From assembly GCF_004336745.1 (NCBI RefSeq), contig NZ_SJXD01000011.1, positions 310,001 through 374,000 of the forward strand: a DNA stretch of 64,000 nt, read 5' to 3'. Position numbers and translations under genes: made by a program. Origin of the DNA: Roseococcus sp. SYP-B2431. Lineage in GTDB: Bacteria > Pseudomonadota > Alphaproteobacteria > Acetobacterales > Acetobacteraceae. This document shows, in pieces, positions 40,123 through 61,179 of this stretch. The notes beneath the pieces are model-generated. The model made no database searches. It worked only from the letters and a program-made list of their open reading frames with translations, and was not told the origin of the DNA. Within the stretch, counting starts at the first letter, position 1. Each line of letters starts with the position of its first letter.

Positions 40123-40307
40123 TCCTTGGGGCCGATCCGCGTCACGGTCTCGCTCTGCCAAGGGCGGCCCTCGGCCATCTCCGCCTCCGCGCCGCCGCGC
40201 GGCGGCTCATAGAAGGAGGCCGCGTCCGGCAGGCGCTCGGGCGGGGTTGCCGGCGCCGCCATCAGGCAGCGGCGGCGCGCCAAAGGAAGAAGCTTCAGAG
40301 CACGCAT
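40119..40307 (-). CDS. small protein of unknown function, 62 aa
   Basis: A short frame with a good ribosome binding site (GGGAGGA seven bases before the ATG) and a four-base overlap with the following receptor gene. Residues 1-20 are basic/hydrophobic (ALKLLPLARRRCL) and could be a weak membrane anchor. The rest is polar with conserved-looking PPRGGAEAEMAEG and SETVTRIGPKE. I do not recognise it. The ribosome binding site and coupling favour a real gene, possibly a leader that couples translation of the receptor. Confidence 0.5.
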   Translation of the reverse strand: MRALKLLPLARRRCLMAAPATPPERLPDAASFYEPPRGGAEAEMAEGRPWQSETVTRIGPKE

Positions 40308-44682: not shown

Positions 44683-45636
44683 TCAGTCCAGCCGGATATT
44701 CGCCGCCTGCGCCACCTCGCGGAAGCGCGCGATGTCCTGCCGGAGCACCTCCGCATAGTGCTGCGGCGTCGAGCCGCCGGGCGTCGCACCCTCGGCCTCG
44801 TAGACCCGCGCCACCTCCGGCTCGGCGAGCGCGGCGGCGACGGCCGCGCTGAGGAGGCGCAGGGGCTCGGCCGGGATGCCGCGCGGGCCCAGCAGCCCCC
44901 ACCAGATCGAGGATTCGTAGTCGATGCCCGTCGCCTCCCTCACCAGGGGCGCCGGCGGGCTGCCCGGGGGCGCGCCGGGGGCGCAATAGGCCAGCAGGCG
45001 CACGCGGTTCTCGCGGATGGCGGCCGACGCGCTGGCCATCGTCGTGATCAGCATCGGCACGTGGCCGGCGATGAGGTCGGTCACGGCGGGCGGCATGCCG
45101 CGATAGGGCACGTGGTTCAGCCGCAGCCCCGCGCGGAGCGCGAAGAGTTCGGTGACGAAGTGGTTGATGCCGCCGGGGCCTGAGCTCGCGAAATCCACCT
45201 CGCCCGGACGGGCGCGGCAATAGGCGACGAGCTCCTGGATGCTGCGCGGCGGGAAGTTCCTGTTCGTCAGCACGAGGAAGGGCGCGCGGGCCAGCAGCGA
45301 GACGGTGTCGAAGCTGCCGATGGCGTCGTAGGACGTGCGCTGGATGGCGGCCGAGGCGGCGAAGCTGCTGCTGGAGACCATCAGCGTGTAGCCGTCGGGC
45401 GCCGATTGCGCGACCTGCCCGGCGCCGATCGATCCGCCGGCGCCGGGCCGGTTCTCGATGACCACGGGCTGGCCGAGCCGCTGCTGCATCTTCTCGGCCA
45501 GCGGGCGCGCGACCACGTCGTTCGAGCCGCCGGGCGGGAAGGGCACGACGATGCGGATCGGGCGCTGGGGCCAGGCGGGCTGCGCATGCGCGAGGGCAGG
45601 GGTGGCGAGCAGCGCGAGGGCGGTACGACGCTTCAT
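44683..45636 (-). CDS. Bug/TctC-family periplasmic solute receptor
   Basis: A 317-residue receptor with a clear signal (MKRRTALALLATPALAHA, cleavage after AHA at 18). The mature start QPAWPQRPIRIVVPFPPGGS is the classic Bug opening. Other motifs are ENRPGAGGSIGAGQVAQ, FASSGPGGINHFV and LNHVPYRGMPPAVTDLI. GGAGGAA precedes the ATG. It is the third such receptor in the window, is alone and is divergent from dinB. No ligand can be assigned. Confidence 0.92.
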   Translation of the reverse strand: MKRRTALALLATPALAHAQPAWPQRPIRIVVPFPPGGSNDVVARPLAEKMQQRLGQPVVIENRPGAGGSIGAGQVAQSAPDGYTLMVSSSSFAASAAIQRTSYDAIGSFDTVSLLARAPFLVLTNRNFPPRSIQELVAYCRARPGEVDFASSGPGGINHFVTELFALRAGLRLNHVPYRGMPPAVTDLIAGHVPMLITTMASASAAIRENRVRLLAYCAPGAPPGSPPAPLVREATGIDYESSIWWGLLGPRGIPAEPLRLLSAAVAAALAEPEVARVYEAEGATPGGSTPQHYAEVLRQDIARFREVAQAANIRLD

Positions 45637-47122: not shown

Positions 47123-48586
47123 ATGGTGGACCACCCATCTCCCGCCGCGCCGGGCGCGCGGCTCCCACCCATCGCGGTCGACCTGGACGGGTCGCTCCTC
47201 CGCATCGACACGCTGCACGAATCGCTCTGCTCCTTCGCCAAAAGCGACCCGGCGGGCATGGCCGGCGCGCTGCTGCGCATCCGCGAGGGAAAGGCCGCCT
47301 TCAAGCGGTCCGTCGCCGAGGCCGCCGAGCTCGACGTCGAGACGCTGCCGTTTGACGAAGAATTGCTCGCCTGGCTGCGGGCCGAGCAGGCCGGCGGCCG
47401 GCGCCTCGGCCTCTTCACCGCGGCGGACCAGTCGGTCGCCGATGCGGTGGCCGCCCGGCTGCCGGGCCTCTTCGAGGTCGTCCGCGGCTCGGACGGGCAC
47501 CTCAACCTGTCCGGCGCGCGCAAGGCCGACGCCATCGCCGCCGAGTTTCCCGAGGGCTTCTGCTACGTCGGCAATGCGGCGGTGGACGTGCCGATCTTCG
47601 CCCGCGCCGAGGCCGCCATCCTGGTGGGGGACGTGGCGCGGCTGCGCGGCATGCTGCCGCCCGGCAGCCGCGTCGAGGCCGAGTTCCCGGCGCCCGCCGC
47701 CGGCTGGGCCGTCTGGCGCAAGGCGCTGCGGCTCTCGCACTGGTCGAAGAACCTGCTCGTCTTCGTGGCGCCGCTGCTGGGCTTCCCGGTGGACCGCGCG
47801 CCGGCCACCCTCCTCGAGGCCGTGCTGCTCTTCGTGCTGATGGGCATGGTGGCCTCGGCGAGCTACCTGGCCAACGACCTCTTCGACCTCTCAGCCGACC
47901 GCCGGCACCCGGTGAAGCGCTACCGGCCGCTGGCCGCGGGGCTGATCACGGCGCAGCAGGGGGCCCTCGTCTCGGCCGGCATGCTGGCGGCGGCCTTCCT
48001 GCTCTCGCTGGTGCTGCTGCCCTATCTCGCGACGCTGGTGCTGGGCGTCTATCTCGTCACCACGACCTGCTACAGCTTCGCGCTGAAGCGCATGCCGATC
48101 GTGGACGTGATCACGCTGGCCGGCCTCTTCACCGTGCGCATCCTGGCGGGCTCGGCCCTGCTGGAGGAGCGCGTCTCGCTCTGGCTGCTGACCTTCTCGA
48201 TGCTGTTCTTCGTCGGCCTCGCCATGGTGAAGCGCTACGCGGAGCTCGACCGGGTGGTGGCGGCGGGCGGCGCCGGCATCGATTCGCGCGGCTACACCGC
48301 CAAGGACCTGGCGCTGCTGCTGGGCGCCGGCCTCGCCTCCGGCTTCAGCGCCATCGTGATCTTCACCATCTACCTGATCCAGGAGCAGTATCCGCGCGAG
48401 ATCTACGGCACGCCCGGGCTGCTCTGGATGATGGTGCCGATCATCATGGTCTGGCTGCTGCGGGTCTGGCACCTCACGCTGCACGGCAGGATGAACGAGG
48501 ATCCCGTGGCCTTCGCCCTGACGGACCGCTTCTCGCTCGGGCTGGGCGTCGTCTCCGCGATCGTGCTGGTCGCCGCATGGGGGTGA
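47123..48586 (+). CDS. HAD phosphatase-UbiA prenyltransferase fusion (polyprenyl-phosphate phosphoribosyltransferase-like)
   Basis: 487 residues. Residues 15-175 form a HAD phosphatase domain (D20 and D22 in VDLDGSLLR; CYVGNAAVDVPIFA). Residues 195-487 form a UbiA domain with about eight membrane segments and the Mg-binding motif NDLFDLSADRRHPVKRYRP (251-269). The UbiA part is of the decaprenyl-phosphate 5-phosphoribosyltransferase type (Rv3806c, NoeC), which moves phosphoribose from PRPP to a polyprenyl phosphate. The HAD part would remove the 5-phosphate, the job of a separate phosphatase in mycobacteria and, by proposal, of NoeH in Azorhizobium. The next two genes are DprE1- and DprE2-like, which supports this pathway. 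It overlaps the DprE1-like gene by 10 bases. Confidence 0.87.
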   Translation: MVDHPSPAAPGARLPPIAVDLDGSLLRIDTLHESLCSFAKSDPAGMAGALLRIREGKAAFKRSVAEAAELDVETLPFDEELLAWLRAEQAGGRRLGLFTAADQSVADAVAARLPGLFEVVRGSDGHLNLSGARKADAIAAEFPEGFCYVGNAAVDVPIFARAEAAILVGDVARLRGMLPPGSRVEAEFPAPAAGWAVWRKALRLSHWSKNLLVFVAPLLGFPVDRAPATLLEAVLLFVLMGMVASASYLANDLFDLSADRRHPVKRYRPLAAGLITAQQGALVSAGMLAAAFLLSLVLLPYLATLVLGVYLVTTTCYSFALKRMPIVDVITLAGLFTVRILAGSALLEERVSLWLLTFSMLFFVGLAMVKRYAELDRVVAAGGAGIDSRGYTAKDLALLLGAGLASGFSAIVIFTIYLIQEQYPREIYGTPGLLWMMVPIIMVWLLRVWHLTLHGRMNEDPVAFALTDRFSLGLGVVSAIVLVAAWG

Positions 48587-49929
48587 GCGCGGTCCCCTCG
48601 CGGGACCATCTCGGCTGGGGCCGCAACCTGCGCGCCGAGCACCGGGTGAGCCGGCCGGCCACGCCGCAGGCCGCCGCGGCCTGCGCCGCCGCGCCCGGCG
48701 GGACGCGGCTCGCCCATGGCCTCGGGCGCTCCTATGGCGACGTGGCGTTGAACCCGGACGGCGCACTGATCGAGACGCGCGGGCTCGACCGCTTCCTCCG
48801 CTTCGATCCCGCGACGGGCATTCTCGACGCCGAGGCCGGCGTCGCCCTGGCCGAGGTCCTGGCCGTGCTGGCGCGGCCCGAGGCGGGCGGCGGCGGCTGG
48901 TTCCTCCCCGTGACGCCCGGCACGCGCTTCGTGACGCTGGGCGGCGCCGTCGCCAACGACGTGCACGGCAAGAACCACCACCGCACGGGCAGCTTCGGGC
49001 GGCATGTGCTCTCCCTCGATCTGGCGCGCTCGGACGGCCGCGTCATGACCTGCTCGCCCCAGGAGAATGCCGGCCTCTTCGCCGCCACGATCGGCGGGCT
49101 CGGGCTGACCGGGCTGATCCTGCGCCTGCGGCTGGCGATGATGCGGGTGGAGGGGCTGGCCATGGAGGCCGAGGACATCGCTTTCGGCTCGCTCGCCGGC
49201 TATTTCGCTCTGGCCGCCGAATCCGAGCAGTCCTGGGACTACACGGCGGCCTGGGTGGATTGCCTGGCCACCGGCGAGGCGCTCGGCCGCGGCATCTTCT
49301 CCCGCGCGCGGCACGCGGCCGGGCAGGGGGCCGCGCCGCCGCCCACCGCGCCGCGCCGCCGCCTGCCGGCGACGCCGCCCCTGTCGATGGTGAACGGGCT
49401 CTCGCTGCGCGCCTTCAACGCGGCCTACCGGCGGCGGCTGGGCAGCTCCGGCCGGTCGCATGCGGTGGGCGGCTACGAGAAGGTGCTTTATCCGCTGGAC
49501 GCGATCGGCGGCTGGAACCGGCTCTACGGCCCGCGCGGCTTCCACCAGTTCCAGGGCGTCGTGCCGCCGGCCGACGCGCCGGCCGTGGTGGCGGAGCTGC
49601 TGCGCGAGATCGCGCGCAGCGGGCAGGGCTCGCCGCTGGTGGTGCTGAAGGGCTTCGGCGACCTTCCCTCACCGGGAATGCTCTCCTTTCCGAGGGAGGG
49701 CACGACCCTGGCCCTTGATTTTCCCGCCAGGGGCCCCGACACGCTGCGGCTCCTCGCCCGCCTGGAGGCGATCACCGTGGAGGCGCGCGGGCGCCTCTAC
49801 CCGGCCAAGGACAGCGTCATGACCGCCGAGACCTTTCGGAGTGGCTACCCGGCCGCCGGCGCCTTTGCCGAGTGGATCGACCCCGCCTTTTCCTCCGGCT
49901 TCGCCCGGCGCGTGGGGCTGCGGCCTTGA
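48577..49929 (+). CDS. DprE1-like FAD-dependent oxidase (decaprenylphosphoryl-ribose 2-epimerase subunit)
   Basis: 450 residues of the vanillyl-alcohol-oxidase flavoprotein family. The FAD-binding part includes GLGRSYGDVALN (48-59) and the diagnostic AVANDVHGKNHHRTGSFG (124-141), equivalent to the DIHGKNHH of mycobacterial DprE1. DprE1 oxidises C2 of polyprenyl-phospho-ribose to the keto form. The C-terminal substrate domain ends GRLYPAKDSVMT and TFRSGYPA, also as in DprE1. ATG at 48577 overlaps the previous gene; GTG at 48583 is an alternative. Its stop overlaps the DprE2-like start (TTGA). Confidence 0.87.
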   Translation: MGVSAVPSRDHLGWGRNLRAEHRVSRPATPQAAAACAAAPGGTRLAHGLGRSYGDVALNPDGALIETRGLDRFLRFDPATGILDAEAGVALAEVLAVLARPEAGGGGWFLPVTPGTRFVTLGGAVANDVHGKNHHRTGSFGRHVLSLDLARSDGRVMTCSPQENAGLFAATIGGLGLTGLILRLRLAMMRVEGLAMEAEDIAFGSLAGYFALAAESEQSWDYTAAWVDCLATGEALGRGIFSRARHAAGQGAAPPPTAPRRRLPATPPLSMVNGLSLRAFNAAYRRRLGSSGRSHAVGGYEKVLYPLDAIGGWNRLYGPRGFHQFQGVVPPADAPAVVAELLREIARSGQGSPLVVLKGFGDLPSPGMLSFPREGTTLALDFPARGPDTLRLLARLEAITVEARGRLYPAKDSVMTAETFRSGYPAAGAFAEWIDPAFSSGFARRVGLRP

Positions 49930-50669
49930 GCCCCCGCGTCGCGATCCTGGGCGGAACCTCCGCCATCGCCGTGGCCGTCGCGCGGCGCTACGCCGATCGC
50001 AAGGCGCGCCTCGTGCTGGTCGGCCGCGACCTGGCGGCGCTGGAGCGCGAGCAGGCGGACCTGCTGGTCCGTGGCGCGGAGCAGGTGGTGCTGCAACAGG
50101 CCGACTTCGCGGATCTGGCCGCGCTGCCCGAGGCCGCGCAGGCGGCCTGGACGGCCTTCGGCGGGCTCGACCTCACGCTGGTCGCCTATGGCTCGCTGCC
50201 CGAGCAGGCGGAATGCGCCGCCTCGGCCGAGGCCGCCGCCGCCGCGCTGGCGCTGAACTTCAACAGCCCGGCCCTGCTTCTGGGCGAGCTCGCGAACCGG
50301 TTCGAGGCGCAGCGCGCCGGCGTGATCGCCGCCATCTCCTCCGTCGCCGGCGATCGCGGGCGGCAGAGCAACTATGTCTACGGCGCCGCTAAGGGCGGGC
50401 TGCAGCGCTTCCTGGAGGGGCTGCGGCACCGGCTGCACCCGGCCGGAGTCGCGGTGCTGGACATCCGCCCGGGCTTCGTCTCCACGCCCATGACGGCGCA
50501 CCTCCCGCAGGGCGGCCCGCTCTGGGCGACGCCGGAGAAGGTGGCGGGCGACATCCTCGCCGCCATCGATCGCCGCAAGGCGGTGCTCTACACGCCCTGG
50601 TTCTGGCGGTTCATCCTCCTCATCGTGAGGTCGCTGCCGCGGCCGATCTTCCACAGGTCGAAGCTCTGA
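49926..50669 (+). CDS. DprE2-like short-chain dehydrogenase
   Basis: A 247-residue SDR. It starts at TTG (49926), overlapping the DprE1-like stop by four bases and giving SPRVAILGGTSAIAVAVARRYA, a proper Rossmann start. The catalytic region reads SSVAGDRGRQSNYVYGAAKGG, with Tyr and Lys in YGAAK. A hydrophobic C-terminal segment (FWRFILLIVRSLP) suggests membrane association, as in DprE2. With DprE1 it would reduce the 2-keto intermediate to polyprenyl-phospho-arabinose. Two bases separate it from the next gene. Confidence 0.85.
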   Translation: MSPRVAILGGTSAIAVAVARRYADRKARLVLVGRDLAALEREQADLLVRGAEQVVLQQADFADLAALPEAAQAAWTAFGGLDLTLVAYGSLPEQAECAASAEAAAAALALNFNSPALLLGELANRFEAQRAGVIAAISSVAGDRGRQSNYVYGAAKGGLQRFLEGLRHRLHPAGVAVLDIRPGFVSTPMTAHLPQGGPLWATPEKVAGDILAAIDRRKAVLYTPWFWRFILLIVRSLPRPIFHRSKL

Positions 50670-50671
50670 CC

Positions 50672-51601
50672 ATGCGCGGAATCCTCGTCACCGGCGCGGC
50701 CGGGCTCGTCGGCCAGAACCTGATCGCGCGGCTGAAGGCGGACCCTTCGCTGCGGCTCCTCGCCATCGACAAGCATCCGGCGAACACCGCCACGCTGCGG
50801 CGGCTGCACCCCGAGGTCCAGGTGATCCAGGCCGATCTCGCCGAGGCGGGCGACTGGGCGGAGGCGTTCGCCGGCATCGACACGGTCGTGATCAACCAGG
50901 CGCAGATCGGCGGCCTGGACGCGGCCGAGTTCGAGCGCAACAACGTCGCCGCCACCGCCCGCATCGTGGAGGCCGCGCGCGCCCATGGCGTGGGCTACCT
51001 CGTGCAGATCTCCTCCTCCGTGGTGCGCAGCCAGGCCTCGGATTTCTACGTGGACACCAAGCGGCGGCAGGAAGCCTATATGGACGGGGTCGAGATCCCG
51101 CATGCCTCGCTGCGGCCCACGCTCATGTTCGGCTGGTTCGACCGCAAGCATCTCGGCTGGCTGCGCCGCTTCATGGACCGCGCGCCGGTGTTCCCCATCC
51201 CCGGCGACGGGAAGTTCCTGCGCCAGCCGCTCTATGTGGGCAACTTCGCGGCCATCATCGCGAGCTGCATCGCGAATCGCACCACCGGCACACACGACAT
51301 CTCCGGCCGCAGCGTGGTGGAATACGGCGAGCTGATCCGCATGATCCACCGCATCGTGAAACCGCGCGCCCGGATCGTGCACATCCCCTACCATCTCTTC
51401 TGGGCGCTGCTCTGGCTCTATGCGCGCCTCGACCGCAACCCGCCCTTCACCACCGCGCAGCTCGAGGCGCTGGTGATCCCGGAGACCTTCCCGATCACCG
51501 ACTGGCCCGCCCGGTTCGGCGTCACGGAGACCCCGCTGGAGACGGCACTGCGCGAGACCTTCACCCACCCGGTCTATTCCGGCACCGTCCTGGAGTTCTG
51601 A
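50672..51601 (+). CDS. NAD-dependent epimerase/dehydratase (extended SDR)
   Basis: 309 residues. The Rossmann motif is VTGAAGLVGQNLI (6-18). Residues around 113-134 (QISSSVVRSQASDFYVDTKRR) hold the Ser and Tyr-x-x-x-Lys (YVDTK) catalytic set. The C-terminal half has IPYHLFWALLWLYARLD, a possible membrane-associated helix. It likely modifies a nucleotide- or lipid-linked sugar. The exact reaction is not clear. It sits inside the tightly spaced run 47.1-54.2 kb, two bases after the DprE2-like gene and one base before the FAD gene. Confidence 0.83.
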   Translation: MRGILVTGAAGLVGQNLIARLKADPSLRLLAIDKHPANTATLRRLHPEVQVIQADLAEAGDWAEAFAGIDTVVINQAQIGGLDAAEFERNNVAATARIVEAARAHGVGYLVQISSSVVRSQASDFYVDTKRRQEAYMDGVEIPHASLRPTLMFGWFDRKHLGWLRRFMDRAPVFPIPGDGKFLRQPLYVGNFAAIIASCIANRTTGTHDISGRSVVEYGELIRMIHRIVKPRARIVHIPYHLFWALLWLYARLDRNPPFTTAQLEALVIPETFPITDWPARFGVTETPLETALRETFTHPVYSGTVLEF

Positions 51602-51602
51602 C

Positions 51603-52886
51603 GTGACACGTGTCCTCGTCCTCGGCGCCGGGCCCATGGGCCTGGCCGCCGCCCATCGCGCACTGGCTCTCGGCCATGAGGTGGACCTGGTCGAGGCGGA
51701 TTCCGTGCTCGGCGGCATGGCCGCGCATTTCGACTTCGGGGGGCTCTCGATCGAGCGCTTCTACCACTTCTGCTGCCTCTCCGATCACCCGACCTTCGAG
51801 CTGATGCAGGAGCTGGGGCTCGGCGATTCGATGCGCTGGGTGCACACGCGCATGGCCTATTTCATGGGCGGCAAGGTGCATCCCTGGGGCGATCCCGTCG
51901 CGCTGCTGCGCTTCCCGCATCTGAGCTGGATCGCGAAGTTCCGCACGGGCCTGCAGATGTTCCTCACCACGCGGGCGAAAAGCTTCGAGCGCATCGAGGG
52001 CCTCACCACGCGGCAATGGATCGAGGGCGGCTCGGGCCGCGAGGTCTATGCGAAGCTCTGGTCGCGGCTGATGCAGCTCAAGTTCCATGAGATGGCGGAC
52101 GAGGTCTCGGCCTCCTGGATCGCCACGCGGGTGAAGCGCATCGGCCGCTCGCGCAAGTCGATCTTCGAGGAGCGGCTGGGCTATATCGAGGGCGGCTCGC
52201 AGACGCTGGTGGACGCGCTGGAGCGCGACATCCGCGCGCGCGGTGGCCGCATCCACACCGGCACGCCCGGCGAGCGCGTGACCGTGGAGAGCGGCCGCGT
52301 CACCGGCCTGGTCGCCGGCGGGCGGGAGTTCCGCGCCGATGCGGTGATCTCCACCATCCCCCTGCCGCTGGTGCCGGGCCTGGTGCCCGACCTGCCGGAG
52401 GCGACGCGCGCGGCCTATGCGCGGCTGCGCAACATCGGCGTGGTCTGCGTGATCCTGAAGCTGAAGCGGCCGGTCACGCGGAACTTCTGGGTGAACATCG
52501 TGGACCCGGCCATCGAGGTGCCGGGGATCATCGAGTTCTCCAACCTGCGCCCGACCGGGGACACCATCGTCTATGTCCCCTACTACATGCCGGTGACCCA
52601 TCCGAAATGGGCCTGGACGGACGACCGGCTCATCGCCGAGGCCTTCGCCGCCGTGCGCAGCGTGAACCCCTCCATCACCGAGGCGGACCTGATCGATTCC
52701 CGGGCGGGCCGCCTGCGCCACGCCCAGCCGGTCTGCGAGCCGAACTTCCTCGACGGCCTGCCGCCCTTCCGCTCGCCCATCGAGGGGCTCTTCATCGCCG
52801 ACACCTCGCACTACTACCCCGAGGATCGCGGCGTCGCCGAGAGCATCCGCTTCGGCCGGATGATGGCGGAGGCCGTCCCGCGGTGA
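51603..52886 (+). CDS. FAD/NAD(P)-dependent oxidoreductase (amine-oxidase/UGM-like)
   Basis: 427 residues beginning with the dinucleotide motif VLVLGAGPMGLAAAHRAL (4-21), followed by VEADSVLGGMAAHFDFGG. The C-terminal FAD motif is GLFIADTSHYYPEDRGVAESI. Such proteins of the protoporphyrinogen-oxidase/UDP-galactopyranose-mutase group often occur in surface-polysaccharide loci next to GtrA and GT2 genes. The start is GTG at 51603 with GGAG upstream. Its stop overlaps the GtrA start (GTGA). The reaction is not known; an oxidation or ring-form change of a lipid-linked sugar is a guess. Confidence 0.8.
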   Translation: MTRVLVLGAGPMGLAAAHRALALGHEVDLVEADSVLGGMAAHFDFGGLSIERFYHFCCLSDHPTFELMQELGLGDSMRWVHTRMAYFMGGKVHPWGDPVALLRFPHLSWIAKFRTGLQMFLTTRAKSFERIEGLTTRQWIEGGSGREVYAKLWSRLMQLKFHEMADEVSASWIATRVKRIGRSRKSIFEERLGYIEGGSQTLVDALERDIRARGGRIHTGTPGERVTVESGRVTGLVAGGREFRADAVISTIPLPLVPGLVPDLPEATRAAYARLRNIGVVCVILKLKRPVTRNFWVNIVDPAIEVPGIIEFSNLRPTGDTIVYVPYYMPVTHPKWAWTDDRLIAEAFAAVRSVNPSITEADLIDSRAGRLRHAQPVCEPNFLDGLPPFRSPIEGLFIADTSHYYPEDRGVAESIRFGRMMAEAVPR

Positions 52887-53293
52887 GGGCGCTGCTGGGC
52901 CACGAGTTCGTCCGCTTCGTGCTGACCGGCGGCACGGCCGCGGCCGTGAACATCGGCGCGCGGATGCTGCTCTCGCTGGCCATGCCCTACGAGGCGGCGG
53001 TGGCAGTGGCCTATCTCATCGGCATGGCGACGGCCTATCTCCTCGCCCGGCGCTTCGTCTTCGCCGCCAGCGGCGGCAGCATGGCCGGCGAATTCTGGCG
53101 CTTCGCCCTGGTGAACCTGATCGCCCTCGCGCAGGTCTGGCTGGTGAGCGTGGGGCTGGCGCGGCTGGTCTTCCCCGCCATCGGCTTCACCTTCCACGCC
53201 GAGACCGTGGCCCATGTCATCGGCGTGCTGAGCCCCATCGGCACCAGCTACATCGGCCACCGCCGCTTCAGCTTTGCCCGCCGCGGGGCATGA
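52883..53293 (+). CDS. GtrA-family membrane protein (lipid-linked sugar flippase-like)
   Basis: 136 residues with four predicted membrane helices, starting at GTG in a GTGA overlap with the previous gene. FVRFVLTGGTAAAVNIGARML (9-29) is the GtrA opening and SYIGHRRFSFARRGA the typical basic end. GtrA proteins are thought to flip polyprenyl-phosphate-linked sugars across the inner membrane. Mycobacterial Rv3789, a GtrA protein, belongs to the arabinan locus with DprE1/E2, which fits the neighbours here. Confidence 0.88.
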   Translation: MRALLGHEFVRFVLTGGTAAAVNIGARMLLSLAMPYEAAVAVAYLIGMATAYLLARRFVFAASGGSMAGEFWRFALVNLIALAQVWLVSVGLARLVFPAIGFTFHAETVAHVIGVLSPIGTSYIGHRRFSFARRGA

Positions 53294-53303
53294 CGGCGGG
53301 CCC

Positions 53304-54215
53304 ATGACGTCCGTCCACGTCCTGCTGGCCACCTGGAACGGCGCCGCGCATCTGGGCGAGCAGCTCGCGAGCCTCGCCGCGCAGGAGGGGGTGGAGTGGT
53401 CGCTGCTCTGGCGCGACGACGGCTCCACGGACGCGACCGTCGCGATCCTGGAGCGGTTCGCGGAGGCCCATCCCGGCCGGGTCGCGCGGCTCGCCCGGCC
53501 GGAGGGGCGCCTCGGCGCCGGCGCCTCCTTCCTGGCGCTGCTGGCGGCGGCGCCGGAGGGCGGGCTCTACGCCTTCATGGACCAGGACGATGTCTGGCTG
53601 CCGGGCAAGCTGGCGCGGGCGGCCGCGCAGCTCGGCGAGGAGCCCATGGCGGTCTGCACGCGGCTCCGGCTGGCGTCATCCGCCCTCGCGCCGCTCGGGC
53701 TCTCGCCGCTGCCGTCGCGCCCCCCCGTCTTCGCGACCCTGCTGGCGCACAACGTCGCCGCCGGCTGCACCCTGGTGTTGAACGGGGCCGCGCGCCGGCT
53801 GGCGCTGTCCGCGCCGCTGCCCGAGGGCGGCCACCACGACTGGTGGTGCGCGCTGCTGGTGACGGGCTGCGGCGGGCGGCTGGTCTTCGATCCCGAGCCG
53901 AGCCTGCTCTACCGCCAGCACGGGGGGAACCTCGTGGGCGGCGCCTCGGGGCTGCGCCAGCGCGCCGGCCGTGCGCTCGGCCGGGGGGCGGCGGGCTTCC
54001 TCGCCCCGCTGTCGCAACACCTGGAGGCGCTGCGTGCCGCGCCGCTGACGGATCCGGCCCGCCAGGTCCTGGCGGCGCTGGAGGGGTTGCGGGCCGCCTC
54101 GCCGTTCCGGCGCCTCGCGGCCCTGCGGCGTGCCGGCCTCGCGCATCATGCGCGGGGCGCGAACTGGCTTCTTCGGCTCTGGGTGGCGCTGCATCCGCTG
54201 CCCGGGCGGAAATAG
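53304..54215 (+). CDS. glycosyltransferase family 2
   Basis: 303 residues with a GT-A fold: VHVLLATWNGAAHLGEQLASL (4-24), WRDDGSTDATV (about 38-48) and the DxD-like metal motif AFMDQDDVWLPGKL (about 89-102), close to rhamnosyl/galactosyl transferases that build O-antigens. A later segment has HDWWCALL and LLYRQHGGN, the usual acceptor-side motif. No membrane helix, so it is cytoplasmic or peripheral. It ends the compact gene run that starts with the HAD-UbiA gene. Confidence 0.9.
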   Translation: MTSVHVLLATWNGAAHLGEQLASLAAQEGVEWSLLWRDDGSTDATVAILERFAEAHPGRVARLARPEGRLGAGASFLALLAAAPEGGLYAFMDQDDVWLPGKLARAAAQLGEEPMAVCTRLRLASSALAPLGLSPLPSRPPVFATLLAHNVAAGCTLVLNGAARRLALSAPLPEGGHHDWWCALLVTGCGGRLVFDPEPSLLYRQHGGNLVGGASGLRQRAGRALGRGAAGFLAPLSQHLEALRAAPLTDPARQVLAALEGLRAASPFRRLAALRRAGLAHHARGANWLLRLWVALHPLPGRK

Positions 54216-54319
54216 TCGGCCGGCGGAATTGGGCGGGCGGCATCTCCGCGCTATAGAGAATCGCGAGCGAACCGCCTCATGCGAGGACCGTCTCGCGACG
54301 GCGCCATAGGGGCATCTGG

Positions 54320-57169
54320 ATGGGTTCGAAGGCTTCCGGCGAAGGGATGGTCGGACTGGCCCCGCGCTACTTTTTCGCCAGCGGTTTCGTGGCCGGCCGC
54401 CGCGTGCTGGACCTGGACTGCGGCGACGGCGCCGGTGCCGCGATGCTGGCGGCCGGGGCGGCGCAGGTCACGGCGATCGCGCCTTCCGCCGAGGCCGCGG
54501 GCGCGGCGGCGGGCCGGCACCGGCTTCCCAATCTGGAATTCCTGCCGCCCGGCGCCGAGCTGCCCGAGGGCGCCGATGTGGTTCTCGCGCTGTCCGGCCG
54601 CCTCGCGGAGATTCCAGGCATCCGGCGCCTCCTGCGGCCGGGCGGGCTGCTCATCGCCGCCGGCGATCCGGCCGGCGGCGTGGAGGAGCTGCTGCGCGCG
54701 CATTTCGCCGAGGTCGCGGTGCTGGGCGAGGGGGGGCTTCCAGCGGCGGGGCAGGAGGGGGAACGCTTCTTCGGCGCCCCCATGCCGGAAGGCGTCGCCT
54801 GGACCCGCGAAGGCCCGGTCCGCCGGCCGGAGACCGGCCCGCTGCTGCTCGCCTCCGACGCCCCGCTGCCGCCCGAACCGGGCGCCGGCGGCGCCGCGCC
54901 CCGGATCGCGGCGCTGCTGGCCGAGCTCGACCGGCTGCGCGACGAGCTGGCGGATTGCGAGGCCCGCGCCCGCGCCACCGGTGACCGGCTGGAGATCGAG
55001 CGCCAGCGCGCCAATGCCATCGAGACCAGCACCATCTGGCGCGCGAGCGGGCCGCTGCGCCGGATCCTCTCCAAGTTTCCCGGGCTGCGGCGGGCGCTGC
55101 GCGAGGGGCTGCGCCGGATCTACCGCTCGCGCCACACGCTGCGCCACCGGCGGGTGCGCCGGCGCCGCCAGTCGGAATTCGCCCCGCTGGTCAGCGCCAT
55201 CGTGCCCAACTTCAACCATGCGCGGTTCCTGCCGCAGCGGCTCGACAGCATCCTCGGCCAGGCCTACCCGAATCTCGAGGTGATCGTGCTGGACGACGCC
55301 TCCACGGATGACAGCCTCGCCGTGATCGAGCGCTATCGCGCGGCCCATCCGGAGCGCATCCGCGTGATCGCGAACGCGGAGAATTCCGGCAACGTCTTCC
55401 GCCAGTGGCGCCGCGGCGTGGAGGAGGCGCGGGGCGACCTGCTCTGGATCTGCGAGAGCGACGACTTCGCCGAGGCCGACTTCCTGCAAGCGCTGGTGCC
55501 CGCCTTCCTCGACGAGAGCGTGATGATAGGCTTCGGCCGCATCCAGTTCGCCGATGCCGCGGGCAAGCCCTATGCCGGCCTGGACGCCTATCGCGAGCGC
55601 TCGCAGCCCGGCATCTGGAAGGGCCGCAACCTGCGCCCGGCCAAGGCCTGGTTCGACACCGCCTTCGGCGTGCACAACGTCATCGCCAATGTCGGCGGCT
55701 GCCTGCTGCGCGCCCAGCCGGTCGAGGAGGCCGTGTGGCGGGAGGCGGCGACCTATGGGATCCTCGGCGACTGGTATCTCTACGCGAGCCTCGCCCGCGG
55801 CGGGCGCATCGCCTACGAGCCGCAGGCCGTCAGCTACTTCCGCCAGCACGGCGGCAACACCTCGGCCTCCGCCTTCGGCACGGCGGCCTACTACGCCGAG
55901 CACGAGCGGCTGATCCGCCTGCTGCGCGCGCGCTGGGGCGTGCCGGAGGCCACGGTGCACCGCTTCGCCGAAGAGCTCCGCGCGCAGTTCGACCGCTCGG
56001 CCGCGGCGCTCGGCCCGCTGGAGACGGTCTTCGACGAGGCGAAGGTCCTCGCCACCCCGCGCGAGGGCCGGCACGTGCTGATGGTCCTCCTGGGCTTCTA
56101 CCTGGGCGGGGGCGAAATCTTCCCGATCCACCTGGCCAACGAGCTGGTGCGGCGGGGCGTCACCGTCTCGGTGCTCGCGCTGCAGCCGGAGGACTGGAAT
56201 CCGGGCATCCGCGCCCGGCTGGACCGGCGCATCCCGGTCTACGGCGCGGCGGCGGTGCGGGCACGCGGCCCGGCCGCCTTCCTGGCCGAGGCCGGCGTGG
56301 ACGTGGTGCATTCGCATTTCGTCGGCGCCGAGCACCTCTTCCTCACCGGGCGCGAGGTGCCGGCGGTGCCCTATGTGGCCTCCATGCACGGCTCCTACGA
56401 GGTCACGGCGGTCGATCCCGACTTCACGCGCAAGGTGGCGCGGCATGTGGACCTCTGGGTCTATCTGACGGAGAAGAACCTCGACCATCTGCGGGTGCTC
56501 TCCGAGGCGGAGCGGGCCGCAATCGCGACGCGGCAGATCCCCAACGGCATGCCGCCCGACCCGCGCCCCTTCGGGCGGAGCCGGGCGGAGCTCGGCATCG
56601 GCGAGGACGACCTCGTCTTCGCCCTGGCCTCCCGCGCCATTCCGGAGAAGGGCTGGGCGGCGGCGATCGAGGCCCTGGCCCTGGCCCAGTCCCGGACGGG
56701 GCGGCGGCTGCACCTGCTGCTCTGCGGCGACGGGCCCGAGGCGGACCGGCTCGGGCGGCCGGGCGGGGGGGCGCCGGGGGTGATCTTCCTCGGCTTCCAG
56801 GAGCGGGTGCAGGGCGTGTACCGCCTCGCCGACGTCGTCCTCCTGCCGACCCGCTTCGCGGGCGAGTCCTTTCCGCTGGCGCTCGTCCAGGCGATGCAGG
56901 AGGGGCGGCCGGCCATCTCGACCGACCTCGGCGAGATCGCCCGGATGCTGCTGCGCGACGGGCGGCGGGCGGGCATCGTCCTCGCGCCGGACCCCGATGA
57001 CGCGCGCTTCGTGGCGGCGCTGGCCGGGGCCATGCTGGCGATGACGGACGACACCGATCGCGCGGCCTTCGCCCGCGACGCCGCGGCGCTCGGCGCCGCC
57101 TATGGCATGGAGACGGTCGCGGCCGCCTATCTCGAGGCCTACGAGGCGGCGGCCGCGCGGCGGGCCTGA
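54320..57169 (+). CDS. multidomain protein: methyltransferase-like, GT2 and GT4 glycosyltransferases
   Basis: 949 residues. Residues 1-180 resemble a SAM methyltransferase (VLDLDCGDGAGAAML, 29-43), but later motifs are degenerate. Residues 190-265 form a charged coiled-coil/linker ending STIWRASGPLRRI, a motif common at the junctions of large O-polysaccharide transferases. A GT2 domain follows at about 287-420 (SAIVPNFNHARFLPQRLDSI; VLDDASTDDS; WICESDDFAEADF). A GT4 domain is at about 590-940 (LGFYLGGGEIFPIHLANEL; PNGMPPDPRPFG; ADVVLLPTRFAGESFPLALVQAM). It can probably add two sugars in turn. The last 31 bases overlap the convergent acyltransferase gene. Confidence 0.9.
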   Translation: MGSKASGEGMVGLAPRYFFASGFVAGRRVLDLDCGDGAGAAMLAAGAAQVTAIAPSAEAAGAAAGRHRLPNLEFLPPGAELPEGADVVLALSGRLAEIPGIRRLLRPGGLLIAAGDPAGGVEELLRAHFAEVAVLGEGGLPAAGQEGERFFGAPMPEGVAWTREGPVRRPETGPLLLASDAPLPPEPGAGGAAPRIAALLAELDRLRDELADCEARARATGDRLEIERQRANAIETSTIWRASGPLRRILSKFPGLRRALREGLRRIYRSRHTLRHRRVRRRRQSEFAPLVSAIVPNFNHARFLPQRLDSILGQAYPNLEVIVLDDASTDDSLAVIERYRAAHPERIRVIANAENSGNVFRQWRRGVEEARGDLLWICESDDFAEADFLQALVPAFLDESVMIGFGRIQFADAAGKPYAGLDAYRERSQPGIWKGRNLRPAKAWFDTAFGVHNVIANVGGCLLRAQPVEEAVWREAATYGILGDWYLYASLARGGRIAYEPQAVSYFRQHGGNTSASAFGTAAYYAEHERLIRLLRARWGVPEATVHRFAEELRAQFDRSAAALGPLETVFDEAKVLATPREGRHVLMVLLGFYLGGGEIFPIHLANELVRRGVTVSVLALQPEDWNPGIRARLDRRIPVYGAAAVRARGPAAFLAEAGVDVVHSHFVGAEHLFLTGREVPAVPYVASMHGSYEVTAVDPDFTRKVARHVDLWVYLTEKNLDHLRVLSEAERAAIATRQIPNGMPPDPRPFGRSRAELGIGEDDLVFALASRAIPEKGWAAAIEALALAQSRTGRRLHLLLCGDGPEADRLGRPGGGAPGVIFLGFQERVQGVYRLADVVLLPTRFAGESFPLALVQAMQEGRPAISTDLGEIARMLLRDGRRAGIVLAPDPDDARFVAALAGAMLAMTDDTDRAAFARDAAALGAAYGMETVAAAYLEAYEAAAARRA

Positions 57170-58269
57170 CCCGCGCCGCGGTCGATCGCCTGGCCGAGCG
57201 GCGCGAAGCGCCGGAAGACGCGCCTGCCCCATGCGATCCCCGGCAGCTCGACGAGGCGATAGCTGGCCCAGGCCAGCGGCAGCACGGCGCCGAGCGTCGC
57301 CGCCAGGCAGAGGGCGAAGCGCAGGGAGGAGGGCAGCGGCAGGGCCGTGAACCAGGCGTAGACGGGCGACATGAACCACACGACCGGCGCGTGCCAGAGA
57401 TAGATGGAATAGCTGATCTGGCCCATGAAGCGCGTGACGCGGTTGTCGAGCGGCCGGAACTCCACGGCGGAGACGCCCAGCAGGACCAGGGCATAGCCAG
57501 CCGCGATGAGGTGGGTGGTGTCCACCAGCCCGCCGGTCAGCCGCCCGGAGGCGATGCCGACCAGCACGAGCAGGCCGAGCGCGATCAGCGCGCCGGCATA
57601 GTCCCGCCGCGGCCCGGCCAGGAGCGGGCTCGCATAGGCGCTGTAGGCCAGCATGCCGATCACGAAGCTCGGCAGGTGGCGGAAGATGCTGAAGGTCTCG
57701 AAGGAGGTGCGCGGCGGCTCGGGCACGAAGCCCGCCGTTACGCCCTTGAACAGGATGCTGGCCGCCAGCGCGACGCAAAGCGTCGCGACCTGCCGGGCCG
57801 GCGTTCCCTGGCGGAAGTAGAGATAGGGGAAGACGAGGTAGAACAGCATCTCCACGCCGATCGTCCAGCTCGCCCAGACATAGCCCTGCTCCTGGCCGGG
57901 GATGAGGTTGAAGACGAAGGTGAGGCTGGTCAGCACCGCCGCCGGCCCGTGCCAGACGCCGAAGGCGAGGACGTGGATCACATAGGTCGCCGCCATGAGG
58001 AACCAGAAGAGCGGCGCGATGCGGAAGAAGCGGCTGATCCCGTAGCTCAGATAGGTCGAGCCCGTGCCGACATGCCGGCCCATGGTCAGGCAGAGCGAGA
58101 AGGCGCTGACCACGAAGAACAGCGTCACGCCCGAGCCGCCGAACATGACCACGCCCTGCCACCAGTCCGAGAGGGGCGGCTTCGAGACCGGCAGGAGGGC
58201 CATGTGGAAGAGAAGGACGTAGAAGGCGGCGAAGCCGCGCAGCCCATCCAGGAAACCCAGTCTCTGCAC
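57139..58269 (-). CDS. membrane acyltransferase, acyltransferase-3 (OafA-like) family
   Basis: 376 residues with about ten membrane segments. The opening FLDGLRGFAAFYVLLFHM (6-23) holds the conserved R-G/H pattern of the family. VTLFFVVSAFSLCLT and WASWTIGVEMLFYLVFPYLYF are also typical, as is SYSIYLWHAPVVW near the C-terminus. These proteins transfer acetyl or other acyl groups to surface sugars. Its location among glycosyltransferase genes suggests O-antigen or exopolysaccharide acetylation. It is the only leftward gene between 45.7 and 64 kb. Its 3' end overlaps the GT gene by 31 bases. Confidence 0.9.
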   Translation of the reverse strand: MQRLGFLDGLRGFAAFYVLLFHMALLPVSKPPLSDWWQGVVMFGGSGVTLFFVVSAFSLCLTMGRHVGTGSTYLSYGISRFFRIAPLFWFLMAATYVIHVLAFGVWHGPAAVLTSLTFVFNLIPGQEQGYVWASWTIGVEMLFYLVFPYLYFRQGTPARQVATLCVALAASILFKGVTAGFVPEPPRTSFETFSIFRHLPSFVIGMLAYSAYASPLLAGPRRDYAGALIALGLLVLVGIASGRLTGGLVDTTHLIAAGYALVLLGVSAVEFRPLDNRVTRFMGQISYSIYLWHAPVVWFMSPVYAWFTALPLPSSLRFALCLAATLGAVLPLAWASYRLVELPGIAWGRRVFRRFAPLGQAIDRGAGQARRAAAAS

Positions 58270-58489: not shown

Positions 58490-59860
58490 ATGTCCACCGA
58501 GGTCTCGATCCGCGCGGAAGGGCTGTTCAAGGCGTACCGTGTCTATGCGGACCCGAAGGACCGGCTGCGCCAGGCCGTGTTCCCGCGGCTGGGCTGGCTG
58601 CTTTCGCGCCTGGCGCCGCCGCTCGCGCGCCGGCTGCGGGACCGGTCCTACTTCACCGAGTTCTGGGCCCTGCGCGATCTCTCCTTCGAGGCGGTGATCG
58701 GCGAGTCCATCGGCATCGTCGGCCGGAACGGCTCGGGCAAGTCCACGCTGCTGCAGATCGTCTGCGGCACCCTCACGCCGAGCCTCGGCAGCGTGACGGT
58801 GCGGGGGCGGATCGCCGCCCTGCTGGAGCTCGGCTCGGGCTTCAACCCGGAATACACCGGCCGGGAGAACATCTTCCTCAATGCCAGCGTGCTCGGGCTG
58901 GCCCGCGAGGAGATCGAGGCCCGGCTCGACGACATCATCGCCTTCGCCGAGATCGGCGCCTTCATCGACCAGCCGATCAAGACCTATTCCTCCGGCATGG
59001 CCATGCGGCTGGCCTTCGCCGTCGTCGCCCATGTCGATGCGGACGTGCTGGTCATCGACGAGGCGCTGGCGGTGGGCGACGCCATCTTCCAGCAGAAGTG
59101 CTTCCGCTGGCTGCGCGGCTTCCAGGAGCGCGGCATCCTGCTCTATTGCGGGCACGACACGGGCGCGATCCTCGGCCTCTGCCAGAAGGCCATCTGGATC
59201 GACCGCGGCGACGTGCGGATGGCGGGCCCGGCGCGCGACGTGATGGAGGCCTACAACATCTTCGTCCATTCGGGGCAGCTGCCGCCGGAGGCGCCGGTCG
59301 CGGCCCGGGCGCCCGGCCCCGTCGCGGACCCCGCGCCAGGGCCGGCGATGGCCCTCGCGGACCCGTCGCGGGGCCTGCGGATGGAGGGCGAGCGGACGAG
59401 CTACGGCTCCGGCCAGGCCGAGATCGCCGAGGTCACCCTGGCGCGGGTCGACGGCCAGCCGCTGGCCTGGATCGTGGGCGGGGAGGAGGTCGAGCTCGCC
59501 TTCCGGATCGAGGCGCGCTCGGCGATCCTCGGCGGCATCGCCGGCATCGTCGTGAAGGACCGGCTGGGCCAGCCCATCCTGGGCGAGAACACGGCCGACC
59601 TCTACGCGGATGCCCCGATCGACCTGCCCGCGGGCGGCACGGCGCAGGCCGTCTTCCGCTTCCGCATGCCGGCCCTGCGCCGCGGCTCCTATTCCATCAG
59701 CCCGGCCTTCGCCTCCGGCACCCTGGCCAACCACGTCCAGCACCACTGGATCCACGACGCCATCGTCTTCGAGGTCCACCCGACCCGCGACGTGGGCGCG
59801 GTGATGCTGCTGGAGGTGAGCCATCGCGGCATCGAGCGGCTGCCGGAGCGGGCAGGGTGA
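58490..59860 (+). CDS. ABC polysaccharide export ATPase, Wzt type with C-terminal sugar-binding domain
   Basis: 456 residues. The N-terminal ATPase has Walker A GRNGSGKST (78-86), signature KTYSSGMAMRLAFA (about 163-176) and Walker B VLVIDEAL. The switch histidine is in YCGHDTGA. After a Pro/Ala-rich linker (about 263-290) the C-terminal domain (about 295-440) is a beta-sandwich Wzt_C type (VELAFRIEARSAILGGIAGIV; AVFRFRMPALRRGSYSISPAF) that reads the capped end of the O-polysaccharide before export. No Wzm permease gene is in the window; it may lie beyond 64 kb or elsewhere. Divergent from the acyltransferase across 220 bp. Confidence 0.92.
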   Translation: MSTEVSIRAEGLFKAYRVYADPKDRLRQAVFPRLGWLLSRLAPPLARRLRDRSYFTEFWALRDLSFEAVIGESIGIVGRNGSGKSTLLQIVCGTLTPSLGSVTVRGRIAALLELGSGFNPEYTGRENIFLNASVLGLAREEIEARLDDIIAFAEIGAFIDQPIKTYSSGMAMRLAFAVVAHVDADVLVIDEALAVGDAIFQQKCFRWLRGFQERGILLYCGHDTGAILGLCQKAIWIDRGDVRMAGPARDVMEAYNIFVHSGQLPPEAPVAARAPGPVADPAPGPAMALADPSRGLRMEGERTSYGSGQAEIAEVTLARVDGQPLAWIVGGEEVELAFRIEARSAILGGIAGIVVKDRLGQPILGENTADLYADAPIDLPAGGTAQAVFRFRMPALRRGSYSISPAFASGTLANHVQHHWIHDAIVFEVHPTRDVGAVMLLEVSHRGIERLPERAG

Positions 59861-60030: not shown

Positions 60031-61134
60031 ATGACGATCATGCCCCAAGCCGAAACCGGCACGTCGGTGCCCCGGGTCTTCGCATTGCCGAAGCCGGCCG
60101 AGAGCCTGGAATTCACCGGCGAGCGCTATGTGAGCGGCCTCGTGGGCGAGATCCAGAACGAGCACTATCACCGCTACTTCTTCGCGCTCGGCCTCTGCGA
60201 GGGGCTGGACGTGCTGGATGTGGCCAGCGGCGAGGGCTACGGCTCGGCGCTGCTGGGCAAGGTCGCGCGCAGCGTCGTCGGCGTCGATATCGACAAGGAA
60301 TCGGTGGACTTCGCCAACCGGAACTACCTCTCGAAGGGCGTGTCCTTCCAGCTCGGCGACGCGACGTCGCTGCCCGTCGCCAGCCAGTCCGTGGACGTGG
60401 TGGTCTCCTTCGAGACCATCGAGCACGTCGCCGACCAGGACGCCTTCCTGCGCGAGATCAAGCGGGTGCTGCGGCCCGATGGCATCCTCGTCATGTCCTC
60501 GCCCAACAAGGACCTGTACCTGAAGGACGCCGAGGAGAATCCCTACCACCTCAAGGAGCTCGACAAGCAGGAGTTCCTGGACGTCGTCTCGCGGCACTTC
60601 GCGCATGTGACGCCGCTCGAGCAGCGGGCCTTCGTCGGCTCGGTCATCGTCCGGGAGGGGGGGCGTCCGCGGGCCTCGGCCGTCGAGGGCTTCGGGACCA
60701 CCGATTGCGAGAACTTCACGCGGGTCGGCGGCGTTCCCGATGCGCCCTATGTGCTGGCCGTCGCCTCCGACCGGCCCGGGCTGAGCGTGCCGGACAGCCT
60801 CTTCTACAATCCGCGCTGGATCTGGCGGCTGGAGGAGCTGCGGCTGCTGGCCGAATCCAAGGCGAGCGAGCCGCTCACGGCCGAGAACGACGCCCTCCGG
60901 CGCGAGATAGCCGCCCTCCGGGGCGAGACAGCCGCCCTTCGGCGCGAGATTTCCGCTCTCGAGGTCTCCTGCGAAAAGGCCGAGCTCGCGGCGCAGATCG
61001 CGACCCAGGCCATCGCGGCCCGGCTCGAGGCGAGCCGCGACGAGGCGGCGGCCCTACGCAATTCCACCTCCTGGCGAATCACGGCCCCGCTCCGTAAGGC
61101 GGTCGGCATCATAAAACGCCTGTCGAGGCACTAA
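60031..61134 (+). CDS. SAM-dependent methyltransferase with C-terminal coiled coil
   Basis: 367 residues. The methyltransferase domain (about 25-225) has LEFTGERYVSG (27-37), the SAM loop VLDVASGEGYGSALL (66-80), the acidic VVGVDIDKESV and FETIEHVADQDAFL, followed by VLRPDGILVMSSPN. Residues 285-340 form a coiled coil with three near-identical heptads (ALRREIA type). The end NSTSWRITAPLRKAVG is a motif recurrent in O-polysaccharide proteins. Members near Wzt/Wzm often cap or modify the glycan end, which sets chain length. ATG at 60031 was chosen because the sequence before it is Pro/Ala-rich and non-conserved; MTIM offers a second ATG three codons on. Confidence 0.87.
   Translation: MTIMPQAETGTSVPRVFALPKPAESLEFTGERYVSGLVGEIQNEHYHRYFFALGLCEGLDVLDVASGEGYGSALLGKVARSVVGVDIDKESVDFANRNYLSKGVSFQLGDATSLPVASQSVDVVVSFETIEHVADQDAFLREIKRVLRPDGILVMSSPNKDLYLKDAEENPYHLKELDKQEFLDVVSRHFAHVTPLEQRAFVGSVIVREGGRPRASAVEGFGTTDCENFTRVGGVPDAPYVLAVASDRPGLSVPDSLFYNPRWIWRLEELRLLAESKASEPLTAENDALRREIAALRGETAALRREISALEVSCEKAELAAQIATQAIAARLEASRDEAAALRNSTSWRITAPLRKAVGIIKRLSRH
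60892..60954 (+). repeat. three 21-bp repeats encoding coiled-coil heptads
   Basis: Three in-frame 21-bp units (GCCCTCCGGCGCGAGATAGC type) at 60892, 60913 and 60934 encode consecutive heptads ALRREIA, ALRGETA and ALRREIS. The near identity at DNA level points to recent duplication within the coiled coil of the methyltransferase. Confidence 0.8.
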
Positions 61135-61179
61135 CTTCCATATCATTGGCTGGTGGGCCGCCCAGCTGGAGGATTGCTG

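Follow-up and report, generated by a model that had tools for sequence, protein, structure and literature searches.

A conserved six-gene form of the probable polyprenyl-phospho-arabinose genes beside a polysaccharide export cluster in Roseococcus sp. SYP-B2431

Introduction

Homologues of three enzymes of the mycobacterial decaprenyl-phospho-arabinose (DPA) pathway (Rv3806c, Rv3790, Rv3791) and, as with Rv3789 in that pathway, a small membrane exporter are encoded in a stretch of 64,000 nucleotides from the alphaproteobacterium Roseococcus sp. SYP-B2431 (contig NZ_SJXD01000011.1, positions 310,001 to 374,000; 'the window', to which all positions refer). Six adjoining genes at 47123-53293 are the subject of this work. 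Compared with the mycobacterial pathway, they include a fused HAD phosphatase instead of Rv3807c, an extra short-chain dehydrogenase/reductase (SDR) and an extra flavin adenine dinucleotide (FAD) enzyme, and the DprE1 homologue carries alanine at the position of C387. We take Rv3789 to be of GtrA type. Kelly et al. call it a member of the SMR family (PMC11127046).

Several related systems have been described in Gram-negative bacteria. In 2024, the reaction of a HAD-UbiA protein was proven for ORF15 of Citrobacter (Kelly et al., PMC11127046). The Citrobacter youngae O1/O2 genes ORF12-ORF15 resemble the window in the N-to-C order of HAD-UbiA, in an adjoining Wzt/Wzm O-polysaccharide cluster and in multi-module glycosyltransferases. 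They differ in their ribofuranose (Ribf) or xylofuranose (Xylf) product, a predicted MATE flippase and a proven GT136, and the text names no DprE1/E2 for them (PMC11127046). In contrast, the window carries DprE1/E2, GtrA and an SDR-FAD pair, and no GT136 is recognised in it, this family being compared by description. A Pfam scan of the nine proteins at 47123-58269 revealed no MATE-family flippase; GtrA is present there instead.

Candidate systems for glycans containing arabinofuranose (Araf) carry DprE1/E2 homologues according to the same study (PMC11127046). The pilin of Pseudomonas paraeruginosa bears D-Araf (PMC12369383). The PA7/Pa5196 genes PSPA7_6245-6251 likewise represent a D-Araf donor pathway in a Gram-negative bacterium, but, unlike the window, with a non-fused synthase, a separate phosphatase and pilin as acceptor (PMC11127046). 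Devosia submarina, an alphaproteobacterium by taxonomy look-up, has an all-D-Araf polysaccharide (PMC8707391). In Azorhizobium, the Nod factor is arabinosylated, and noeC, noeH and noeO have been likened to mycobacterial arabinose precursor genes (PMC2443382). Unlike the window genes, noeCHOP of Azorhizobium caulinodans lies within a Nod-factor operon, and we liken it to the window by description, not by sequence.

D-Araf in Gram-negative bacteria is already established and the core pathway is known; the six-gene form is new. An initial annotation of 47123-50669 had placed the pathway outside actinobacteria mainly in noeCHOP. In view of the Citrobacter, Pseudomonas and Devosia examples and of the frequency of DprE1 homologues in alphaproteobacterial genomes given below, this claim of rarity is wrong, and the biochemistry proposed along with it is probably right. 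Among titles and abstract beginnings of the open-licence literature, we recognised no paper on an SDR-FAD pair beside UbiA and GtrA.

Genes of the operon

The window carries a conserved, extended six-gene variant of the arabinose-donor genes, in which two extra oxidoreductases lack an assigned step. The genes are as follows:

47123..48586, plus strand: HAD-UbiA fusion, phosphoribosyl-polyprenyl-phosphate synthase with the HAD phosphatase at its N-terminus (by PRK08238, PDB 8j8j and catalytic residues)
48577..49929, plus strand: DprE1-like FAD oxidase of polyprenyl-phospho-ribose (by PDB DprE1, VHGKNHH and YPAKD)
49926..50669, plus strand: DprE2-like SDR reductase (by PDB DprE2; TTG start, 4-base overlap)
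50672..51601, plus strand: extended SDR, NAD-type (by PF01370)
51603..52886, plus strand: FAD oxidoreductase of the phytoene-desaturase/protoporphyrinogen-oxidase type (by PRK07233)
52883..53293, plus strand: GtrA-family small membrane protein, probable flippase of a lipid-linked sugar (by PF04138, 1.7e-15)

The UbiA or HAD-UbiA gene with DprE1 and DprE2 is termed the core, and the SDR, FAD oxidoreductase and GtrA genes are termed the trio. As initially annotated, three overlapping genes lie at 47123-50669, the overlaps being 10 bases (fusion/DprE1-like) and 4 bases (DprE1-like/DprE2-like). That extent covers the core and leaves out the three further genes of the module (50672-53293), which follow closely: 2 bases separate the DprE2-like gene from the SDR gene and 1 base the latter from the FAD-enzyme gene, which overlaps GtrA by 4 bases. 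For the DprE2-like gene, the TTG at 49926 was chosen as the start; a longer frame with GTG is open from 49872.

Co-occurrence and distribution

The occurrence of these genes was assessed in a class sample of 385 alphaproteobacterial genomes, with cut-offs of E <= 1e-30 for DprE1, E <= 1e-25 for the SDR and at least 48% identity for the FAD enzyme. A DprE1 homologue was found in 51 genomes (44 at E <= 6e-67), and the PRK08238 model was passed in 28; for two of these (G361, G086), the passing piece matches over UbiA alone. Five genomes contained the SDR and five the FAD enzyme. These are the identical five, the window's among them; all are DprE1-positive, and in all of them the pair neighbours the core, which in G358 has a UbiA without HAD. 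For random sets, the chance that all five are DprE1-positive is 3.4e-5 and that of two identical sets of five is 1.5e-11, both figures ignoring kinship, with two of the five from the same genus. Six further genomes of the class sample have remoter FAD-enzyme matches (29-33% identity) and were not counted as members; in the three of these that were examined (L132, L133, L137), the fetched stretch contains no HAD-UbiA/DprE core, the match in L137 lying near a contig end. In a phylum sample of 398 genomes, seven FAD-enzyme matches besides that of the window were observed (47-51% identity). For six of them, the complete set of six genes lies within the fetched stretch; the seventh, at a contig edge, shows only the SDR, the FAD enzyme and GtrA. 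Members of the extended module belong to Alphaproteobacteria and Gammaproteobacteria. Within the window's own genus, PRK08238 was passed in 4 of 21 genomes, including that of the window.

Gene content was also compared across 91 loci picked by homology, 89 of which were tabulated, L133 and L137 having no passing match. Short search loci (L050-L088) and L090, which is identical to L009, were left out, and the near-identical or overlapping pairs L005/L006, L013/L034 and L029/L103, each with 200-base stretches in common, were kept. SDR and FAD-enzyme calls required at least 40% identity. The GtrA threshold was 1e-15, and weaker GtrA-like proteins are possible in core-only loci; the table is blind to a trio located past the fetched stretch or the contig end. 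On this basis, 19 loci have all six genes, 35 the core alone, 28 UbiA or HAD-UbiA alone and 3 HAD-UbiA with GtrA. The remainder comprises two loci with UbiA and DprE1 only (L009, cut by a contig end, and L138), a contig-edge locus that has the pair, and three without a passing core or pair match. No core with a partial trio was found in the 91 loci. In total, 54 of the 91 loci combine UbiA, DprE1 and DprE2 (the trio being present in 19 of them and absent from 35), which argues against a chance association of the three genes. The SDR and the FAD enzyme occur together in 20/20 loci where either was found, and GtrA is present in 19/19 six-gene loci, as the definition of that set demands. Seven of the 19 (L130, L147-L152) were selected via a FAD-enzyme match; among core loci chosen independently of this enzyme, 12 of 47 have the trio, the window included.

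The core enzymes

The HAD-UbiA open reading frame encodes 487 amino acids, with the HAD part at about 1-190 and the UbiA fold at about 200-487 (PF01040 covers residues 229-464). Over its whole length it matches PRK08238 with 533.8 bits (cut-off 351). The top solved structure is the mycobacterial decaprenyl-phosphate phosphoribosyltransferase 8j8j (1.6e-24); the next kinds, digeranylgeranylglyceryl phosphate synthase and 4-hydroxybenzoate octaprenyltransferase, follow at 0.00075 and 0.01. NCBIfam phosphoribosyltransferase models score 111-129 bits, compared with 30 for haem O synthase (cyoE_ctaB) and 26.5 for ubiA_proteo. Alignment with ubiquinone or haem enzymes, which the initial annotation had named as the counter-evidence to look for, was not observed, and such a function is ruled out by the NCBIfam scores and the PDB matches.

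The UbiA motifs N251-D252-x-x-D255-x-x-x-D259 and K370-R371-x-x-E374 are present in the window. In an alignment of 81 HAD-UbiA or UbiA homologues, the first is kept in 78/78 rows with letters there, and the second has K in 80/81, R in 81/81 and E in 79/81. The HAD domain carries D20-x-D22, T99, K134 and D155. Asn151 in motif IV could have pointed to a degenerate domain; this is ruled out, Asn being commoner than Asp among family members (46 N, 20 D). PF12710 was matched in 11 of 12 aligned HAD N-termini, the sole exception being that of the window, which has no Pfam match at 0.01, and a profile built from the 12 N-termini retrieved nothing from the PDB at 0.01. By homology and conserved residues, the UbiA domain probably makes a polyprenyl-phospho-ribose 5-phosphate product, which the fused HAD domain would dephosphorylate.

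Variants of the synthase were seen elsewhere. In two relatives from one family of genomes (L115:9345-10775 and L116:9262-10674), the usual D-x-D is missing from HAD motif I while UbiA, DprE1 and DprE2 are present, which suggests a different phosphatase in these genomes. HAD-UbiA genes of Verrucomicrobia or Pontiellaceae (L012, L040, L049) have no DprE1/E2 match within the stretch; the protein that follows begins like what we take to be a nucleotidyltransferase, and these synthases may serve a ribose glycan. One six-gene locus (L130, from G358; 9819-10658) has a UbiA synthase without the HAD domain, whose gene runs in the opposite direction to those of its partners.

For the DprE1-like protein, the best NCBIfam match is the DprE1 model NF053785 (341 bits), and DprE1 in the PDB is matched at 7.6e-68. 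VHGKNHH lies at residues 129-135 and YPAKD at 408-412. The active-site lysine of YPAKD (K418 in mycobacterial numbering) is conserved in 49/49 DprE1 rows with letters. The DprE2-like protein is above the cut-off for PRK07102 and scores 183.5 bits with the DprE2 model NF053786; its top PDB match is DprE2 (5.8e-35). It contains the cofactor and catalytic motifs GGTSAIA and ISSVAGDRGRQSNYVYGAAK, with Y-x-x-x-K and the SDR serine present, and the catalytic Tyr (of YGAAK) and Lys are found in 48/48 DprE2 rows. The functions first proposed for all three core genes are supported by homology and catalytic residues.

C387, which covalent DprE1 inhibitors cannot do without (PMC6153800), corresponds to Ala379 in the window; of the 49 DprE1 rows with letters at this position, 48 have Ala, one has Ser and no row has Cys. 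Because the target cysteine is missing in these DprE1-like proteins, benzothiazinone is an unsuitable probe, and the benzothiazinone assay suggested with the initial annotation would probably fail here. This corrects a practical assumption: the cysteine attacked by covalent tuberculosis drugs is absent from the DprE1 homologues examined.

The SDR and the FAD oxidoreductase

In the extended SDR, the residues G8, G11, G14, D33, S114-S116, Y126 and K130 are invariant in 7 sequences, and D33 suggests the NAD type. A structural model built from these 7 sequences (predicted local distance difference test, pLDDT, 79.3) matches the fold of the complex I 39-kDa subunit and of GalE-type epimerases. The FAD enzyme matches PRK07233 with 500 bits (cut-off 252). 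Its model, built from 6 sequences (pLDDT 78.8), aligns best with phytoene desaturase 5mog (Z 31.0, root-mean-square deviation 3.0, 413 residues aligned), followed by protoporphyrinogen oxidases (Z about 28.6) and UDP-galactopyranose mutase (Z 26.8). Foldseek ranks phytoene desaturase second, behind an uncharacterised oxidoreductase. The fold searches of both enzymes point to no substrate, whole superfamilies scoring similarly.

Mosaic history of the operon

Trees of 19 loci place the two halves of the operon with different relatives. Support of 100/99, 100/100 and 100/99 joins UbiA, DprE1 and DprE2 of the window to those of Microvirga, Aquabacter and a Hyphomicrobiales genome, whereas the SDR and the FAD enzyme fall with two genomes from the window's own genus (100/99 and 100/100). 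The identities follow the same pattern: UbiA, DprE1 and DprE2 are 57, 62 and 67% identical to Microvirga and 43, 56 and 44% to the genus relative L091, whereas the SDR and FAD enzyme are 55 and 58% identical to Microvirga and 69 and 67% to L091. Because trees and identities assign the halves to different relatives, one half of the operon has probably been exchanged, with a junction near 50670 (50669-50672) and the gene order retained.

Downstream polysaccharide cluster

The operon leads into a region with the following genes:

53274..54215, plus strand: family-2 glycosyltransferase (PF00535)
54320..57169, plus strand: multi-module glycosyltransferase with GT2 and GT4 modules (Pfam)
57139..58269, minus strand: membrane acyltransferase (Acyl_transf_3, PF01757), inside the cluster on the opposite strand
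58490..59860, plus strand: Wzt, ATPase of a polysaccharide ABC exporter with a C-terminal carbohydrate-binding domain (PF14524 1.5e-31, PF00005)
60031..61134, plus strand: methyltransferase, possible chain terminator (PF08241)
61174..64000, plus strand, continuing to about 65214 past the window: large multi-module glycosyltransferase with WbsX, GT4 and GT2 (PF14307 6.5e-132)

A Wzm-type permease follows past the window (L089:5342-6109; PF01061, best NCBIfam Wzm model 38 bits, under its cut-off). By its gene content, the region is an ABC-transporter-dependent polysaccharide cluster with Wzt and Wzm. The methyltransferase has a weak match to PF05557 at 276-324 (E 0.009), a weak hint of a C-terminal coiled-coil. 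The glycosyltransferase at 53274-54215 reaches a peak 19-residue hydropathy of 1.59 and, with the threshold at 1.6, has no membrane segment at that threshold; it is therefore not regarded as a GtrB-type partner of GtrA.

A candidate for the final transfer is encoded between Wzt and Wzm, on the same contig past the window: a 1298-residue protein with 22 hydrophobic segments (L089:1312-5208), for which Pfam and NCBIfam gave no match and the PDB nothing meaningful. It resembles two halves of the glycosyltransferase type GT-C in tandem. Of the 19 six-gene loci, 15 encode within the fetched stretch a membrane protein of about 500-800 residues with 7-10 hydrophobic segments. L149 and L152 are outside the alignment of these proteins, and L148 and L151 aligned poorly and were dropped from the final set. 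Nine of 11 aligned proteins have the acidic first-loop motif P-x-x-D and N-E-H in common, with P50, D53, N72, E73, H74 and R345 invariant; the other two align poorly. Six of seven such proteins had no Pfam match at 0.01, L031 giving a PMT match below the cut-off, and none of four matched NCBIfam. From topology and motif, we infer that the membrane proteins of the six-gene loci are GT-C enzymes.

Proposed pathway and alternative readings

Taken together, it is likely that the six genes at 47123-53293 serve a surface polysaccharide, for which they would synthesise a pentofuranose linked to polyprenyl phosphate and export it. Homology and conserved residues suggest that the UbiA domain would transfer ribose-5-phosphate from phosphoribosyl pyrophosphate to polyprenyl phosphate, expected to be undecaprenyl phosphate, that the HAD domain would strip the 5-phosphate, and that the DprE1-like oxidase and DprE2-like reductase would invert C2, giving polyprenyl-phospho-D-arabinofuranose. 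From gene linkage, the SDR and the FAD oxidoreductase may form a second redox pair acting on the arabinose product or its lipid. GtrA, judged by its family, would flip the donor. In the periplasm, a GT-C enzyme would then move the sugar onto a glycan exported by Wzt/Wzm, gene order pointing to this acceptor. The initial annotation had expected an arabinan-donor pathway and D-arabinose on a surface glycan. The homology, the catalytic residues and the polysaccharide cluster agree with this, but plain D-arabinose as the final sugar is uncertain given the two linked oxidoreductases.

Several observations weigh against the proposed pathway. The 111-129 bits of the fusion are below the equivalog cut-offs of the NCBIfam decaprenyl-phosphate phosphoribosyltransferase models (207-474), as are the scores of the DprE1-like (cut-off 500) and DprE2-like (cut-off 250) proteins, which are labelled '-like' for this reason. 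The window has GtrA where the Citrobacter system has a MATE flippase. In the window, GtrA has no GT-C neighbour; the sole candidate nearby is the 1298-residue protein past the window, which belongs to no matched family, and the GT-C candidate of a genus relative found no match in the window's genome at 0.01, an empty result that proves little. In addition, the SDR-FAD pair is missing from 35 of the 54 loci with the core and is consequently dispensable for D-Araf itself.

For the SDR and the FAD enzyme, we lean tentatively towards a change of the sugar, by a second two-step epimerisation or otherwise, with a product such as D-lyxofuranose or a deoxy or oxidised pentofuranose. A flavoprotein with an SDR parallels the logic of DprE1 with DprE2, the pair is linked to the core, and the SDR has its catalytic residues and a GalE-type fold match. 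In Citrobacter, a GalE-like SDR beside HAD-UbiA turns Ribf into Xylf (PMC11127046). On the other hand, the FAD enzyme has a desaturase/amine-oxidase type of fold, phytoene desaturase being its best match, yet UDP-galactopyranose mutase also scores well; moreover, its model comes from only six sequences. That such a second redox change after DprE1/E2 yields a lipid-linked pentofuranose not yet described, for example D-lyxofuranose or an oxidised or deoxy form, seems rather unlikely at present. The O-polysaccharide of Coxiella reportedly contains branched L-lyxofuranose, so that a statement that no lyxofuranose is known would be limited at most to plain D-lyxofuranose. D-lyxofuranose is absent from all solved carbohydrate structures according to Kelly et al. 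2024 (PMC11127046).

An action on the polyprenyl part, such as saturation or desaturation of an isoprene unit for recognition by the exporter or transferase, is unlikely. The resemblance of the FAD enzyme to phytoene desaturase, a polyisoprenoid enzyme that comes first by Z and second by Foldseek, fits this reading. However, fold likeness reveals no substrate, protoporphyrinogen and amine oxidases score almost equally, and the SDR would be left without a role. We find it just as unlikely that the pair contributes a different sugar or a side group to this glycan and is merely co-inherited with the arabinose genes. Core and trio are indeed separable, as the core-only loci and the different relatives of the window's two halves illustrate, but co-occurrence in the class sample is exact, the pair was found without the core in only one of the loci examined, at a contig edge, and members come from two classes. 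Finally, that the pathway ends with polyprenyl-phospho-ribofuranose, or that its product goes to pilin or a different protein instead of a polysaccharide, is improbable: P. paraeruginosa does put D-Araf on pilin (PMC12369383) and the GT-C here is unassigned, but DprE1 and DprE2 of the window keep every tested catalytic residue and the operon leads into the Wzt/Wzm cluster.

In the sampled genomes, the SDR-FAD pair accompanies arabinose-donor genes only, across at least two Gram-negative classes, which makes its role a sharply bounded and testable gap. Its reaction, once solved, would bring to light a sugar not seen before in bacterial surface glycans or else a novel way of modifying a lipid-linked donor.

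Two further genes of the window, at 39148-40161 and 44683-45636, have products that we take to be tripartite tricarboxylate (Bug-type) binding proteins.

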